Shown: piece after piece, positions 44,862-52,126 of the stretch
How the letters are laid out: every line of letters begins with the position of its first letter
How positions within the stretch are numbered: position 1 is the first letter of the stretch
Assembly: GCF_002095385.1 (NCBI RefSeq)
Contig: NZ_MIPP01000011.1
Coordinates: forward strand, 1-64,000
Source: Pantoea eucrina
GTDB lineage: Bacteria; Pseudomonadota; Gammaproteobacteria; Enterobacterales; Enterobacteriaceae
Reading direction: 5' to 3'
Length of the DNA: 64,000 bases
Made by a program: the position numbers and the translations under genes
The notes under the pieces: model-generated
Told to the model about the DNA's origin: nothing
Seen by the model: only the letters and a program-made list of their open reading frames with translations
Database searches by the model: none

Positions 44862-47688
44862 TTACTTCTTCAGCATCGGTTTCAGGAAGCGTGCGGTATG
44901 TGACTTTTCACACTCTGCCACGGTTTCCGGCGTACCGGCGACCAGGATCTCACCGCCGCCGCTGCCGCCTTCGGGACCCAGATCCACGATCCAGTCTGCG
45001 GTTTTAATCACATCCAGATTATGCTCAATCACCACAATGGTATTGCCCTGATTACGCAGCTGATGCAGGACTTCCAGCAGCTGCGCAATATCGGCAAAGT
45101 GCAGGCCGGTGGTCGGCTCATCCAGAATATAGAGCGTCTGTCCGGTACCGCGCTTCGACAGCTCACGCGCCAGCTTGACGCGCTGCGCCTCACCACCAGA
45201 GAGCGTGGTGGCGGACTGGCCGAGACGGATATAGGAGAGGCCGACATCCATCAGCGTCTGCAGCTTGCGTGCCAGCGCCGGGACCGCTTCAAAGAAGTCG
45301 CGCGCTTCTTCAATCGTCATCTCCAGCACTTCGTGAATGCTTTTGCCTTTGTACTTGATCTCCAGCGTTTCGCGGTTATAGCGTTTGCCTTTACACTGAT
45401 CGCACGGCACATAGATGTCGGGCAGGAAGTGCATTTCCACTTTGATCACGCCATCACCCTGGCACGCTTCACAGCGTCCGCCGCGCACGTTAAAGCTGAA
45501 GCGGCCCGGATTGTAGCCGCGCGAGCGCGACTCCGGCACACCGGCAAAGAGTTCACGCACCGGCGTAAAAATGCCGGTATAGGTCGCCGGGTTAGATCGT
45601 GGCGTACGCCCGATCGGGCTTTGATCGATGTCGATCACTTTATCGAAGTGCTCAAGGCCGGCGATCTCACGATAAGGTGCCGCTTCACCGCTGGTTGCAC
45701 CGTTAAGCTGCTGCTGCGCGATCGGGAAAAGCGTATCGTTGATAAGCGTTGATTTCCCGGAGCCGGAGACGCCGGTGATGCAGGTAAACAGGCCAACCGG
45801 CAGCGTCAGCGTCACATCCTTCAGGTTATTGCCGCGCGCGCCGGTGAGCTTCAGCACTTTAGCCGGATCGCCTTTCACCCGCTCGGCCGGCACTGCGATT
45901 TCGCGCTTGCCGCTCAGGAACTGGCCGGTCAGCGACTCTTCATGCGCCATAATGGCGTGTACATCACCTTCAGCCACTATCTGTCCGCCGTGCACGCCCG
46001 CGCCCGGACCGATATCAATGATATGGTCAGCCGCTCTGATCGCGTCTTCGTCATGCTCTACCACAATCACGGTATTGCCGAGATCGCGCAGGTGGATCAG
46101 GGTCGAGAGCAGGCGTTCGTTATCGCGCTGGTGTAACCCGATAGAGGCTCATCAAGAACGTACATGACGCCAACCAGGCCCGCGCCAATCTGGCTGGCCA
46201 GACGAATACGCTGCGCCTCGCCGCCGGAGAGCGTTTCAGCCGAACGTGACATGGAGAGATAGTTCAGGCCGACGTTGACCAGGAAACTCAGCCTATCGCC
46301 GATCTCTTTCAGGACTTTCTCAGCAATTTTTGCGCGCTGGCCGCTCAGTTTAAGGTTGGTGAAAAACTCCATCGCATGACCAATACTCATTTCAGAGATG
46401 GTAGGCAGGTTAGTATCTTCAACAAACACGTGGCGCGCTTCGCGGCGCAGGCGGGTACCGTGACAGCTGGTGCAGGCGCGGTTGCTGATAAACTTCGCCA
46501 GTTCTTCGCGCACCGCATTGGACTCCGTCTCTTTATAACGGCGCTCCATATTATGCAGCACCCCTTCAAACGGATGACGCCGCACGGAAGTATCACCGCG
46601 ATCGTTGATATATTTGAATTCAATATTCTCTTTGCCCGAGCCATACAGGATCACCTGACGCGCTTTGTCGCTCAGGCTGCTGAACGGCGCCTCCACGTCA
46701 AAATCGAGATGCTCAGCGAGCGAGCGCAGCATCTGAAAATAGTAGAAGTTGCGGCGATCCCAGCCGCGAATCGCACCGCCCGCCAGCGACAGCTCAGGGT
46801 TCTGCACCACGCGATCGGAATCAAAGTATTGCTGCACGCCAAGGCCGTCACAGGTTGGACAGGCGCGGCCGGGTTGTTGAACGAAAACAGGCGCGGTTCC
46901 AGCTCACGCATGCTGTAGCCGCAGATCGGGCAGGCGAAGTTGGCGGAGAAGAGCATCTCTTCGCTGTCAGGATCGTCCATGTCCGCCACGATCGCGGTGC
47001 CGCCGCTGAGTTCAAGCGTGGTTTCAAACGACTCCGCCAGACGCGTGGCGAGATCGTCGCGCACGCGAAAACGATCGATGACGACTTCAATAGTGTGCTT
47101 TTTCTGCAGCTCAAGTTTCGGCGGATCGGAGAGATCGCACACTTCGCCATCGATGCGGGCACGGATGTAACCCTGCGCCGCCAGGTTTTCCAGCGTTTTA
47201 GTGTGCTCACCTTTGCGATCTTTCACCACCGGCGCCAGCAGCATCAGGCGGCGACCCTCTTCCTGCGCCAGCACCTGATCCACCATCTGGCTTACGGTCT
47301 GCGCCGCAAGCGCGACGTCGTGATCGGGACAGCGCGGCTCACCCACGCGGGCAAACAGCAGGCGCAGGTAGTCGTGGATTTCAGTAATAGTACCCACCGT
47401 CGAGCGCGGGTTATGCGAAGTCGATTTCTGCTCAATGGAAATGGCGGGCGACAGGCCTTCGATATGATCGACATCCGGCTTCTCCATCAGCGAGAGAAAC
47501 TGGCGCGCGTAAGCAGAGAGGGACTCTACATAGCGCCGCTGACCTTCGGCATAGAGCGTATCAAACGCCAGCGATGACTTCCCGGAACCTGAGAGACCGG
47601 TGACAACGATCAGCTTATCGCGTGGAATGATCAGGTTAATATTTTTCAGATTGTGGGTGCGAGCACCGCGGACTTCGATCTTATCCAT
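44862..47688 (-). pseudogene. uvrA: UvrA excinuclease ABC subunit A, broken by two one-base losses
   Basis: UvrA recognises bulky DNA lesions for nucleotide excision repair. All parts are present: N-terminal Walker [10 protein letters not shown], zinc-finger cysteines [17 protein letters not shown] and [18 protein letters not shown], two LSGGEAQR signatures and C-terminal Walker [10 protein letters not shown]. The frame is lost at about 46866 ([14 protein letters not shown] expected after FSF, one C missing on the plus strand) and again at about 46145 ([16 protein letters not shown] expected, one A missing on the plus strand). Repairing both gives a full-length protein close to E. coli UvrA (940 residues). 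It is divergent from ssb. Confidence 0.9.
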
Positions 47689-47914: not shown

Positions 47915-48475
47915 ATGGCCAGTCGTGGCGTAAACAAAGTGATTCTTGTCGGGAATCTGGGTCAGGATCCGGAAGTGCGTTTCATGCCAAACGGTGGCGC
48001 TGTAGCCAACTTTACGCTGGCCACGTCTGAAAGCTGGCGTGACAAGCAGACCGGTGAAAACAAAGAGAACACCGAATGGCACCGCGTTGTGCTGTTTGGC
48101 AAACTGGCTGAAGTTGCCGGTGAATATCTGCGTAAAGGCTCACAGGTCTATATTGAAGGTCAGCTGCGTACGCGCAAGTGGCAGGACCAGAGCGGCCAGG
48201 AAAAATATACCACCGAGGTTGTTGTCAACGTAGGCGGCACCATGCAGATGCTGGGCGGACGTCAGCAGGGCGGTGCGAATGCAGGTGGCGCACCGATGGG
48301 CGGCCAGAGCGGCGGCGGAAATAACAACGGCTGGGGTCAGCCACAGCAGCCGCAGCAGCAGCAGTCTCAGGGCGGCAATCAGTTCAGCGGCGGCGCGCAG
48401 CAGCGTCCACAGCAGCAGAGCGCACCGGCGAACAACGAACCGCCAATGGATTTCGACGACGATATCCCGTTCTGA
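47915..48475 (+). CDS. ssb: Ssb single-stranded DNA-binding protein
   Basis: Ssb coats single-stranded DNA in replication and repair. The 186-residue protein has the OB fold ([60 protein letters not shown]), a Gly/Gln-rich linker and the partner-binding tip DFDDDIPF. It is divergent from uvrA and followed by a terminator. Confidence 0.98.
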
Positions 48476-48512
48476 AGCTGACTGATCAGTCACCTTTAAA
48501 AATATGTGCGCA

Positions 48513-48545
48513 AGCCCCTGTTAATACAGGGGCTTTTTATTTTGT
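48513..48545 (+). terminator. ssb terminator
   Basis: AGCCCCTG and CAGGGGCT form an eight-pair stem with a six-base loop, followed by TTTTATTTT. It marks the left edge of the accessory region. Confidence 0.9.
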
Positions 48546-48696
48546 ACTTTTGGCACTCATCAAATATCAATTCATATCCGTTTTTTGATCCAAAGATCCT
48601 GCATGACAGCCAGGAGAAAAAAGAGTGGCATATTTTATCTGTATGGACGCGCCAGCTGATGCAAAGCAGAAAAGACCAATATTAGCCTTAAACTCA

Positions 48697-48718
48697 TTAT
48701 TAGCTGCGCAGCTAATAA
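48697..48718. promoter_or_regulatory. 22-bp perfect palindrome before the AbiEi-like gene
   Basis: TTATTAGCTGC is followed directly by its exact reverse complement. The palindrome ends ten bases before the AbiEi-like start. AbiEi antitoxins are known to bind inverted repeats in their own promoter, so this is a likely autoregulatory operator. Confidence 0.65.
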
Positions 48719-48728
48719 CGGGCTGGAA

Positions 48729-49853
48729 ATGAATGTCATGAGCCATTACCCACATTATTCAGAATTCGAACAACAGATGCTGGATGCACTGAGGGAAGCT
48801 ATTGCTGAAGCCTTCGGCTCCGAAGCTTCTGTACTGAATGCCTCACACGAGCTTCCCGAAGCTGGAGTTGAACTTGATGGCAAGATTGTGATCAAGACTC
48901 CGGGTAAAACCCTGCAGGTATTCGTCGAGGTCAAAAAACAGGTCTACCCAAGAGACCTGAGAAATGCTGTCTACCAGCTTCGCAGAGGCATAGATGAAAC
49001 CAGTGATTGTCACGAAGCGATTGGACTGCTTGCTGCAGGTGAGTTGAGTCCCGGGGCTAAACAGGAGCTCAGGAATCAAAATATCGCCTCATTCGAGCTG
49101 GGGGGTAGCCTTTATCTGAAGCATGAAGGCTGGTTCATTAACATCGAAAAGCCTTCCCACCGTAGCAAAAAGAACACTCATGGCATTGAGCTTTTCACTG
49201 AGGCTCGGGAAAGTGTAATACATGCGCTTCTGATGAATAGCCATAAGTGGTTGACCGGCGCAGAACTGGCCGAAAAAGCCGAAACATCTCCATACACCTG
49301 CTCTCTCGTCCTGCAGGAGCTGACATTGCGTGAATGGGTGGAGTCTACTGGTAGAGGACCGGGCAAGCGCAGAATGCTCACTCACCCTGATAAGCTTTTG
49401 GACGCCTGGTCTGAGCAGTGGCAGGGACGTAAAGAAAAGAGGTCAAAGTGGTACACCTTTGTCGAAACGCCCGAGCATCTGCTGGCTCACCTGGCGGAAG
49501 AGATAGACCGTCAGAAAGTGGATTATCCGTGGGCATTTACGGGTGCTGCTGCAGCGAATGTTTATGCTCCACTGCTGACCAGTACTGAGGGAGCAGAAAT
49601 TATTGTGCCCAGGGGCTACGCGGATAAGATGGCTGATAGATTAGGCCTGAAGCCAGTGAGCAGAAGGGCAAACGTTACGCTCATTGAGCGCGAACCTGCG
49701 AGTTTGCTTTATCGATATATGCGCTCGGATCAGCCTGTCTTTTTTGCCAGTCCTTACATTCTGTATCTGGACTTATTAGATGGTCGGGGCCGCAACAAGG
49801 AACTGGCGCAACATATCAGAGAACGATTGGAGTCTTTATGGCAACGGAATTGA
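48729..49853 (+). CDS. AbiEi-type antitoxin / transcriptional regulator with nuclease-like N-terminal domain
   Basis: I assign this 374-residue protein to the AbiEi family of type IV toxin-antitoxin systems. It has three parts. Residues about 10-130 look like a PD-(D/E)XK fold (Asp50, then Glu67-Val-Lys69 in FVEVKKQ). Residues about 158-215 form a winged helix (LTGAELAEKAETSPYTCSLVLQEL, then GRGPGKRRML). Residues about 240-374 match the AbiEi C-terminal domain (PWAFTGAAAANVYAPLL, EIIVPRGYADKMADRLGL, YILYLDLLDGRGRNKELAQHIRERL). The start could also be Met4. The next gene overlaps its end by 16 bases but is a remnant of the toxin. The surrounding DNA is clearly acquired. Confidence 0.72.
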   Translation: MNVMSHYPHYSEFEQQMLDALREAIAEAFGSEASVLNASHELPEAGVELDGKIVIKTPGKTLQVFVEVKKQVYPRDLRNAVYQLRRGIDETSDCHEAIGLLAAGELSPGAKQELRNQNIASFELGGSLYLKHEGWFINIEKPSHRSKKNTHGIELFTEARESVIHALLMNSHKWLTGAELAEKAETSPYTCSLVLQELTLREWVESTGRGPGKRRMLTHPDKLLDAWSEQWQGRKEKRSKWYTFVETPEHLLAHLAEEIDRQKVDYPWAFTGAAAANVYAPLLTSTEGAEIIVPRGYADKMADRLGLKPVSRRANVTLIEREPASLLYRYMRSDQPVFFASPYILYLDLLDGRGRNKELAQHIRERLESLWQRN

Positions 49854-50105
49854 AACCTCGTACAGCGGCTGGATACGATCAAAATGTCACACTGGCATGC
49901 GAGAGGACGCTGCTTACACTGTTAAGCGCCTTTGGAAATTTGAGAGAAACTCTGAGACTTGTCGGTGGTTTGGTCCCCCGTTGCCTATGCACGTTTCCAT
50001 AGCGGGAACGATGAAGACGAAGATGAGCTTGTTAGCCGACAGCGTTTTGCTGCAGGGTTAGTCCAGAAGTTACTGACTGAGATTGAGAGGCAACGGACAG
50101 CCTGA
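49838..50105 (+). pseudogene. Remnant of an AbiEii-like nucleotidyltransferase toxin gene
   Basis: Translation from the ATG at 49838 (with GGAG upstream) gives MATELKPRTAAGYDQNVTLA and then LRLVGGLVPR, which is how AbiEii-type nucleotidyltransferases begin. It stops at 50000-50002 after 54 residues. In another frame, from about 49980 to the stop at 50103, the reading is VAYARFHSGNDEDEDELVSR then QRFAAGLVQKLLTEIERQRTA, which looks like a natural protein C-terminus. The middle of the gene, including the catalytic aspartates expected after LVGG, is missing. This is an internal deletion, not a point frameshift. Confidence 0.6.
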
Positions 50106-51203
50106 CGAAAACAGAAGTGCCGTAGCGTCAGCCCGGCAGGTTTACGCTGCGATATAGCCCGCCAGCAGTGACGCGCTTTTTACAGCCAGAGGCGTGCCGG
50201 TTTTGCTCTGCGTATTATGTCGCTAACAGCTTTTGCTGAGGTTTCCGGACTCTCTGTTCTTCACGCCTCCTCATTCTGTGGCTACGACCAGCGATGTTCA
50301 GGCAGCGTTGATCTGCAGCGTTATACCGGCGTTTTTAAGAATTTAGCCCACCCGTTTTTGCCTGGTTTGCCCGTCTTACCGCCTGAACATTCGCCGCTAT
50401 ATGCTCCTGAGCAGGCAGACAGGTTGTCTTTTAATCACCTTTTGACATAACGCCCGGCTGCTATAGCGTGCTTACCCCGGTGATAGATGTGTCTTGGCGT
50501 CTGTTTTTTATGCAGAACAGAGCAGCAGTTGCATATTGATGAGACGAAATGAGAATAAAAATTGGCTGTAACCGCTCTGCGGCCCCCGGTTTTAATCAGA
50601 GAGTGGCCCTGTTTAGTGGTAAGAAAAACCATTCAGGTATCAAGCGAGGGCGCTGCGGTTAAGAATGATCCCGGTCACATTCCGCATAAAAATATTAAAA
50701 CCCGCGACAAATAACCGAATGTTATTTATCGATCATATCGCTTTTTATCTTACATAGTTTAAAGCTCATTACGTTTTTGGGCGGGAAAATTCCTGGAGAA
50801 ATTAAATCATAAATTGTTTATCCCACGCGACGCGCCGATTTTTAAGCGCAACCGTCAGGGCCAGGATAAATGAGAGGAGAAAAGTGGTGCAGCCGGAGGA
50901 GATGTTCAGTTGTGCTAACTAAAAACAACTGTGATTTAAGGTCAGCAACAGCGGCGTTAATGCAATAAACGAAGCGCCAATCTCACCGCAATGAGATTGG
51001 GCAACGTCTAAATGACTTAAAATACAAGACTTTTGCTGGTGTGAATCAATTTTACCGCAAAAAAAGAAGCATTTTCCTGCCATTAATCATCAGGAAAAAG
51101 AGGTGCGAATTGTTATATTGTGAACGCCGGATTAAATGATCTTCATCTCTTCTGGTAAGAACAAATCTCAGCATTTAGTCAAATAACAGCGGCCTTACAA
51201 CTA
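50106..51203. other. 1.1-kb stretch without recognisable genes
   Basis: I find no frame here that looks like a protein. The first 350 bases are mixed in composition and may be decayed coding DNA. From about 50640 the DNA is AT-rich. It contains hairpins without T runs, for example CCAATCTCA / TGAGATTGG at 50977-51000 and CAGTTGT / ACAACTG at 50907-50931. It lies between the toxin remnant and the IS3 fragment and is probably residue of earlier insertions. Confidence 0.55.
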
Positions 51204-51599
51204 TTAGCGATTTTCCGATCCTGACGGATAGTGGTAAACGCTGCGGCTGATGTCGAGCAAACGACAGCTGCGGCGGGTTCCAATATCAAAGGTTGTCTGC
51301 AAAAAGTTGACTGCCTGACGCTTTTCATTGGTGGTAAAGAAGTTTTTGAGCACGCTCTGCAGCATCTCTTTATCGGAACTCAGCGTTTGCAGTTCGCGGG
51401 TAAGGTTCTGTAGTTTGTCCTCTAACTCTTTGATCTTTCTTCCTTCTTCAGAAGAAAGGCCTGAAAATTTCTTCTTCCAGCTGTAGAAGGTAGCCTCTGA
51501 AATGCCGAGCTCTTCACAAATCTCCCTGACTTTTACTCCTGTTTCAGAAGCTTTAATGGCATTTGTGATTTGCTCTTCGCTATATCGTGACTTTCTCAT
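51204..51599 (-). mobile_element. IS3-family transposase fragment (OrfA with the start of OrfB)
   Basis: The frame encodes MRKSRYSEEQITNAIKASE, then VREICEELGISEATFYSWKKKFSGL, the helix-turn-helix of IS3-family OrfA. A leucine-zipper-like helix follows (LEDKLQNLTRELQTLSSDKEML), then KRQAVNFLQTTFDIGTRRSCRLLDISRSVYHY, which belongs to the beginning of OrfB. The reading stops in flanking DNA soon after. The integrase domain with its DDE residues is absent. I see no terminal inverted repeats, so this is a dead remnant. Confidence 0.82.
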
Positions 51600-52126
51600 A
51601 AATGCTCTTACCTTTCTTATCAATTAGTGGATGAGAATTACTGTATTAATATCTGGTACTGCAAAAACGGTATTAATGCAGTATTAAAGTGCGCGATTTG
51701 AATTGCGAGGGATAAATTAAGATATTTAGAATAAATATCATCATGGGATAAATCTTATTTTATTATGAATGCCAATGAACATCTTCCTGGTATTGGCTTT
51801 TTGATATAGATTCATTCCATCCCAAATGCAGAAAAATACGACAAACATTGGATATTCGGTACAGCTTTCTTGCAAAAAAGAGAGGGCGTGCCAGTAAACT
51901 TTTGTCTCGAATTCGGGTTGAAATCGTTTACATCCGCTGAAATTCGCACCAGATTTAATCAGAATTTTCCTGAATTTCTCTTCTAAATCCTGACGCGAGT
52001 CTCATTTTTCGGACCAGCCTGGTTTGAAGTTATTAATTTTTGTCAGGCCCACTGAGCGCTTGTTAATTCATTTCAAGGACGTTTTACCGCAAGGCAGTTG
52101 CTGTAAGTAATACTAAGGACCAGTCA
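51600..52126. other. AT-rich region before the flippase gene, no gene
   Basis: These 527 bases have no credible coding frame. The composition is AT-rich, unlike the flippase gene that follows. It probably contains the promoter and a long leader of the two-gene polysaccharide cassette. I looked for a JUMPstart or ops element and did not find one. Confidence 0.5.

Follow-up and report, generated by a model that had tools for sequence, protein, structure and literature searches.

The segment behind ssb in Pantoea eucrina raises the question of what becomes of an antitoxin gene when its toxin gene has been gutted, and whether the survivor has a role of its own or is a remnant on its way out. The window (the whole stretch of DNA analysed here, 64,000 nucleotides at positions 1 to 64,000 of contig NZ_MIPP01000011.1) carries at this place an AbiE-type (type IV toxin-antitoxin) operon. 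The explanation that we consider probable is that this is a horizontally acquired AbiE operon in a variable slot behind ssb, caught in early decay with the toxin lost first and the antitoxin now weakly expressed or silent. The features on which the argument draws are the following (window coordinates).

47915 to 48475, plus strand: ssb (open reading frame), the chromosomal neighbour at the left edge of the variable slot
48512 to 48535, plus strand: terminator-like site (intrinsic) 3' of ssb, with a 10-bp stem, a 4-nt loop and a T run (inverted repeat I3)
48649 to 48676, plus strand: degraded operator site 1 and hexamer place, located by alignment with relatives
48697 to 48718, no strand: perfect 22-bp palindrome, the surviving operator site 2 (core 48700-48715)
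48738 to 49853, plus strand: orphan AbiEi-type antitoxin/repressor (PF09952), listed as an open reading frame from 48729, 371 or 374 residues
48747 to 49130, plus strand: predicted N-terminal PD-(D/E)XK nuclease-like domain, residues 7-134 of the 374-residue frame, with D50, E67 and K69
49173 to 49445, plus strand: predicted winged-helix DNA-binding domain, residues 149-239 of the same frame
49461 to 49841, plus strand: predicted C-terminal AbiEi_2 domain of nucleotidyltransferase-like fold, residues 245-371 of the same frame
49838 to 49981, plus strand: 5' remnant of the AbiEii-type toxin gene, comprising the first 48 codons including motif I, with a 16-nt overlap with the antitoxin gene
49980 to 49982, plus strand: deletion junction, about 3 bp common to both sides, 638 bp missing
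49980 to 50105, plus strand: 3' remnant of the AbiEii-type toxin gene, comprising the final 41 codons with the stop, in a different frame from the 5' remnant

Complete AbiE pairs are present in five relatives available as DNA, namely Alteromonadaceae bacterium XY-R5 (L002), Erwinia sp. 198 (L003), Aeromonas caviae NZ_AP026896.1 (L004), and the genomes G116 (L008) and G166 (L009), and these five also make up the operator comparison below. In L002 a phage-type integrase (PF00589; 883-1878, minus strand) lies about 2 kb from the intact pair, which suggests that the pair there is carried on an integrative element.

The antitoxin gene is listed as an open frame at 48729-49853, which encodes 374 residues from the listed start. 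The ATG at 48738, giving 371 residues, is the probable start judging from the alignment, since the ATG of the relatives falls there and P0001, the nearest of the antitoxin homologues among the matches listed (505 found), starts at the same place. The sequence GGAGG stands eight bases upstream of the start in L003 and L008, and the window has GGAAA at that position. P0001, seen as a protein only and named Pantoea sp. Acro-807 by a source, is 98% identical to the window protein, which itself matches AbiEi_2 (PF09952) with E=7.4e-9 and 36.5 bits against a cut-off of 21. Alignment A1 of the AbiEi proteins has 115 rows, comprising the window and 114 of 120 listed homologues (of 505 found) after five were left out for length along with P0011, and PF09952 matches all 115 members at E up to 1. 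The window antitoxin keeps 95 of the 97 highly conserved residues; its two substitutions (K312R and G313R) compare with none or one in the 19 relatives listed next to it. K312R is common to one other row, while G313R is unique among the 115 and may impair the C-terminal domain. Private changes number 27 non-synonymous and 36 synonymous, as compared with 18-23 and 19-26 in four intact relatives, and we regard them as within the range of these relatives, so that they give no measure of either decay or selection in the time after the deletion. Private non-synonymous changes are not in excess in the antitoxin, and so do not demonstrate that this gene is itself decaying.

The toxin gene has fared very differently. 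The frame at 49838 encodes 48 residues of an AbiEii-type toxin, and the last part of the gene is found, in a different frame, at 49980-50105, with approximately two thirds of the gene lost to one deletion. The same 638 bp are missing between two collinear BLASTN pieces in comparison with each of L002, L003, L004 and G116 (here locus L038), and since 638 is not a multiple of three the end of the toxin gene is out of frame. In L002, L003, L004 and L008, 212 residues lie between the surviving motifs. The deletion takes residues 49-260 in L003 numbering, together with the conserved motif residues from D66 onward, so the DxD metal motif and motifs III and IV are gone and the window keeps only motif I of the four that a complete toxin gene encodes. 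It is clear that the sequence-only reading had the outline right: it took the 374-residue protein for an AbiEi-type antitoxin with an intact frame and the overlapping gene for a toxin gutted by one large deletion whose start and end survive. It had proposed looking for short repeats at the junction near 49980, and no junction repeat beyond about 3 bp was found in the alignments with L002, L003, L004 and G116 or in the flanks in four relatives; the overlap between the two pieces is 3 bp against L003, L004 and G116 and 7 bp against L002. The first 48 remnant residues are identical at every position to the intact 301-residue toxins P0149, P0151 and P0152, and the last 41 are identical at 40 positions to the same proteins, which are the closest intact toxins and were seen as proteins only. 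The deletion looks young on this count, as the remnants are nearly identical to intact toxins elsewhere. A further toxin entry from an uncultured Pantoea sp. (P0214, 235 residues) has its start at a methionine within the toxin sequence, next to the DxD motif, and its end is identical to the window remnant; it may carry a second, different lesion or a misplaced start.

The family of the lost toxin can be judged from its relatives. Alignment A2 of the AbiEii proteins has 91 rows, comprising L003 and 90 of 120 listed homologues (434 found), with 30 left out by hand, mostly near-duplicates or fragments. Residues G43, G44, D66, D68, R196, K200, D201 and D204 are invariant in all 91 rows, and K189 is present in at least 90%. 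These residues fit AbiEii motifs I-IV as given in the available text of PMC3985639 (hG[G/S]...DhD, a lysine motif III and +DxxD as motif IV), and the gap between motifs I and II is longer in the A2 toxins than the 15 stated there. The Pfam model PF08843 recognises these toxins poorly at its cut-off of 22.5 bits, with L003 scoring 13.4 bits and L002 and L004 unmatched, and it matches 38 of the 91 A2 members at E up to 1 (best 0.00019). Most of the named toxin relatives are annotated as hypothetical proteins by their sources. A structure model of the L003 toxin (mean pLDDT 86.3, pTM 0.88) has MenT1 (8an4) as its best match, with E 2.0e-4, probability 1.00, a TM score of 0.58 by target length, an rmsd of 6.5 and 19% identity.

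Upstream of the antitoxin, the 22-bp perfect palindrome at 48697-48718 that had been called a palindromic operator is indeed present and is the putative operator site 2. Allowing up to two mismatches, its core TTAGCTGNNCAGCTAA is expected 0.23 times in the window and was found once with no mismatch; allowing up to one, the entire 3.89-Mb assembly contains it at a single place. The same palindromic element is found in the five relatives at a distance to the start codon that is equal within 1 bp, with one mismatch in each of L002, L003, L004, L008 and L009 and none in the window. What the earlier description missed is that this perfect site amounts to half an operator. Four of the five intact relatives (L002, L003, L004 and L009) carry two copies of TTAGCTGnnCAGCTAA with 0-1 mismatch, 54-55 bp apart, upstream of the antitoxin, and in the window the upstream copy is lost, with no second site found there within five mismatches. 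Inverted repeats thus appear to mark the operon promoter as expected for an AbiEi system, with two sites in four relatives and site 2 alone in L008 and the window. L008 retains site 1 with five mismatches together with an intact toxin, so site 1 can be lost without the toxin having been lost beforehand.

Promoter-like hexamers overlap site 1 in L003 (TTGTTA-16-TACTAT), L004 (TTGTTA-16-TACGAT) and L008 (TTGCCA-16-TAGTAT); the aligned place in the window reads GCGCCA-16-AAAGAC and is about 7 bp shorter. These hexamers are weak, with 8 of 12 consensus matches in L003 and L004 and 9 of 12 in L008, and the fit is poorer in L002 and L009. A general promoter scan calls the hexamer promoter in L008, prefers a different pair in L002, and calls none in the window, L003 or L004. 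As far as the alignment goes, the relatives' site 1 and promoter-like hexamers are gone from the window, and a promoter may well have gone with them. Farther upstream, the window contains unrelated hexamer pairs that match at 8 of 12 positions and could serve as a promoter, and the terminator-like site at 48512..48535 should limit read-through from ssb into the AbiE segment.

The foreign origin proposed for the segment agrees with its distribution. ssb is matched in all 61 genomes of the genus (own included) and is identical at 550 of 561 bases to that of the nearest congener, G008, which is without the segment and has 323 bp between ssb and the sequence resuming at 50305. Counting the strain's own genome each time, the antitoxin occurs in 1 of 61 genomes of the genus; with an E limit of 1e-10 it is found in 6 of the 392 family genomes, and with a limit of 1e-40 in 3 of the 369 class genomes. 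An intact pair occupies the same slot behind ssb in L003 and L008. Congener loci were fetched for 58 of 60 genomes (not G009 and G043; L073 ends early and G024 is represented by the copy on C33), and no AbiE was found in the stretches fetched. PsyrTA lies within 0.6 kb behind ssb in five of these loci (L023, L024, L025, L027 and L028) and RES-Xre in seven (L026, L034 and L043-L047). PADLOC identified PsyrTA in L023, Pfam identified RES-Xre in L026 and L034, and the other assignments come from tblastn; several more loci carry other cargo there. The slot (window 48476-50304) therefore looks like a toxin-antitoxin exchange site, in which three unrelated systems stand in place of one another.

The wider surroundings also vary. 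A block whose products we take to be isochorismatase-like, AraC and EamA proteins follows ssb in 46 of the 58 congener loci and is absent behind ssb in the window (48476-50955) and in G008. On the other side of ssb, the gene that we assume to be uvrA (44862-47688, minus strand) apparently falls into at least three frames (46672-47688, 46097-46837 and 44862-46070), which could reflect a pseudogene or sequencing errors. An open frame at 51204-51623 (minus strand), approximately 1.1 kb downstream of the AbiE remnant, is presumably the OrfA-like part of an IS3-type transposase.

The architecture of the antitoxin is less ordinary than its situation. The structure model of AbiEi (pTM 0.64) has three domains, in which a domain with the fold of a PD-(D/E)XK nuclease precedes a predicted winged helix (149-239) and a predicted C-terminal antitoxin domain (245-371), the last two being in the order expected of an AbiEi. 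The putative catalytic residues D50, E67 and K69 are all present in the window protein. Across alignment A1, D50 is found in 108 of 115 rows, E67 in 101 and the full D-E-K triad in 48. With K at the third position in 52 rows and L, I or V there in 62, catalysis cannot be a property of the whole family. The YPRD motif directly after the nuclease-like strand (residues 73-76, window 48945-48956) is invariant in all 115 AbiEi relatives and is more conserved than the catalytic-type residues. In the literature searched we found no description of AbiEi antitoxins with a nuclease-like extra domain.

According to the explanation that we favour, a horizontally acquired AbiE operon would have settled in the variable slot behind ssb, where the intact pair would have worked as a known AbiE does, with AbiEi repressing the operon via the palindromes and counteracting AbiEii, presumably a MenT-like nucleotidyltransferase. 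A single 638-bp deletion removed residues 49-260 of this nucleotidyltransferase-type toxin, and the toxin would have gone first since prior loss of the antitoxin would be harmful. The upstream operator copy and the overlapping promoter-like hexamers are also gone, with the antitoxin frame and the downstream operator remaining. The orphan AbiEi would then be weakly expressed or silent and, with no known toxin to neutralise in the genome, would bind at most its own palindrome and be expected to erode. In the genome (99.75% complete) a toxin query for another AbiEii gave nothing besides the two remnants except a single match at noise level (E 2), and PF08843 found nothing as compared with matches in 6 of 14 control genomes, although the PF08843 result is by itself poor evidence of absence because the model misses most of these toxins at its cut-off.

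The sequence-only reading had instead suggested a role for the survivor. An anti-addiction module, in which the orphan AbiEi is kept because it neutralises a related incoming AbiEii and lets the cell shed elements or escape abortive infection, seems unlikely to us. The idea draws on the open frame with its conserved residues, on the existence elsewhere in public sequence of intact toxins whose ends are almost the same (P0149, P0151 and P0152), and on orphan antitoxins having been discussed as anti-addiction molecules (PMC10790755, in the part of the paper available). Against this, the gene is present in one of 61 genus genomes, the window lacks the promoter-like hexamers of the relatives (although weak pairs are left elsewhere) and has a terminator-like site upstream of the gene, and an open frame is expected anyway after a deletion that looks young. 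For the same reason, namely that the deletion looks too young, the open frame is not evidence of selection. We give even less credit to a DNA-binding regulator or nuclease acting on a target other than its own operon: the modelled winged helix and the PD-(D/E)XK-like domain keeping D50, E67 and K69 would suit such a role, but with up to one mismatch allowed the 3.89-Mb assembly contains the operator core at a single place, the third catalytic position is occupied by L, I or V in 62 of the 115 family rows, and G313R may impair the C-terminal domain. Equally improbable is the more ambitious view of a three-domain AbiEi class in which a complete-triad PD-(D/E)XK nuclease is joined to the repressor and antitoxin domains, making the antitoxin itself a DNA-acting effector that, as an orphan whose toxin is lost, still works as a single-gene anti-invader or anti-addiction device.

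It might also be argued that the deletion arose in the assembly and that the toxin gene is whole in the strain, since the assembly is a draft of 108 contigs. This is very improbable, as the junction shares about 3 bp rather than a repeat of the kind that assemblers collapse, and no other toxin piece was found in the 99.75% complete assembly. With no other AbiEii and no second operator found in the genome and a deletion that looks young, the anti-addiction or regulator role is unsupported, and a function for the orphan AbiEi is possible but unsupported. A decaying remnant is the simplest reading because the relatives' promoter-like site is lost, a terminator-like site lies upstream and the deletion appears young. 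The locus would thus be an ordinary case of the expected order of toxin-antitoxin decay, toxin first, caught early; the more useful pointers are the AbiEi antitoxins with a nuclease-like extra domain and the slot behind ssb.

Among known systems, the nucleotidyltransferase toxin MenT1 (8an4) is the best fold match of the intact L003 toxin and differs from it in sequence and in the closeness of the superposition, as the identity and rmsd given above indicate. The closest known systems for the N-terminal domain are the PD-(D/E)XK nucleases PaqCI (8epx) and NucS/EndoMS (2vld, 5gke), but here the nuclease-like domain is joined to a repressor and its third catalytic position is not conserved in the family. 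The partner protein of MenT1 is of another kind. In Rv2827c/Rv2826c of Mycobacterium tuberculosis, too, an AbiEi-like protein represses its own operon and inverted repeats, in more than one set, precede a DUF1814 toxin gene, whereas the antitoxin there has two domains and the word "nuclease" is absent from the main text of that paper (PMC7319586). The nearest parallel for the operon is AbiE of Streptococcus agalactiae, a type IV system that, in the available text of PMC3985639, has the same bicistronic antitoxin-toxin order, a repressor that combines a winged helix with an antitoxin domain at the C terminus, a promoter with two inverted repeats, and the VGG, DxD, K-x6-R and +DxxD motifs that the relatives' toxins carry. 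Relative to that account, the antitoxin described here has about 370 residues and carries an additional nuclease-like domain at its N terminus, the operator of the relatives consists of two short palindromes 54-55 bp apart, and the window has lost the toxin and one operator.
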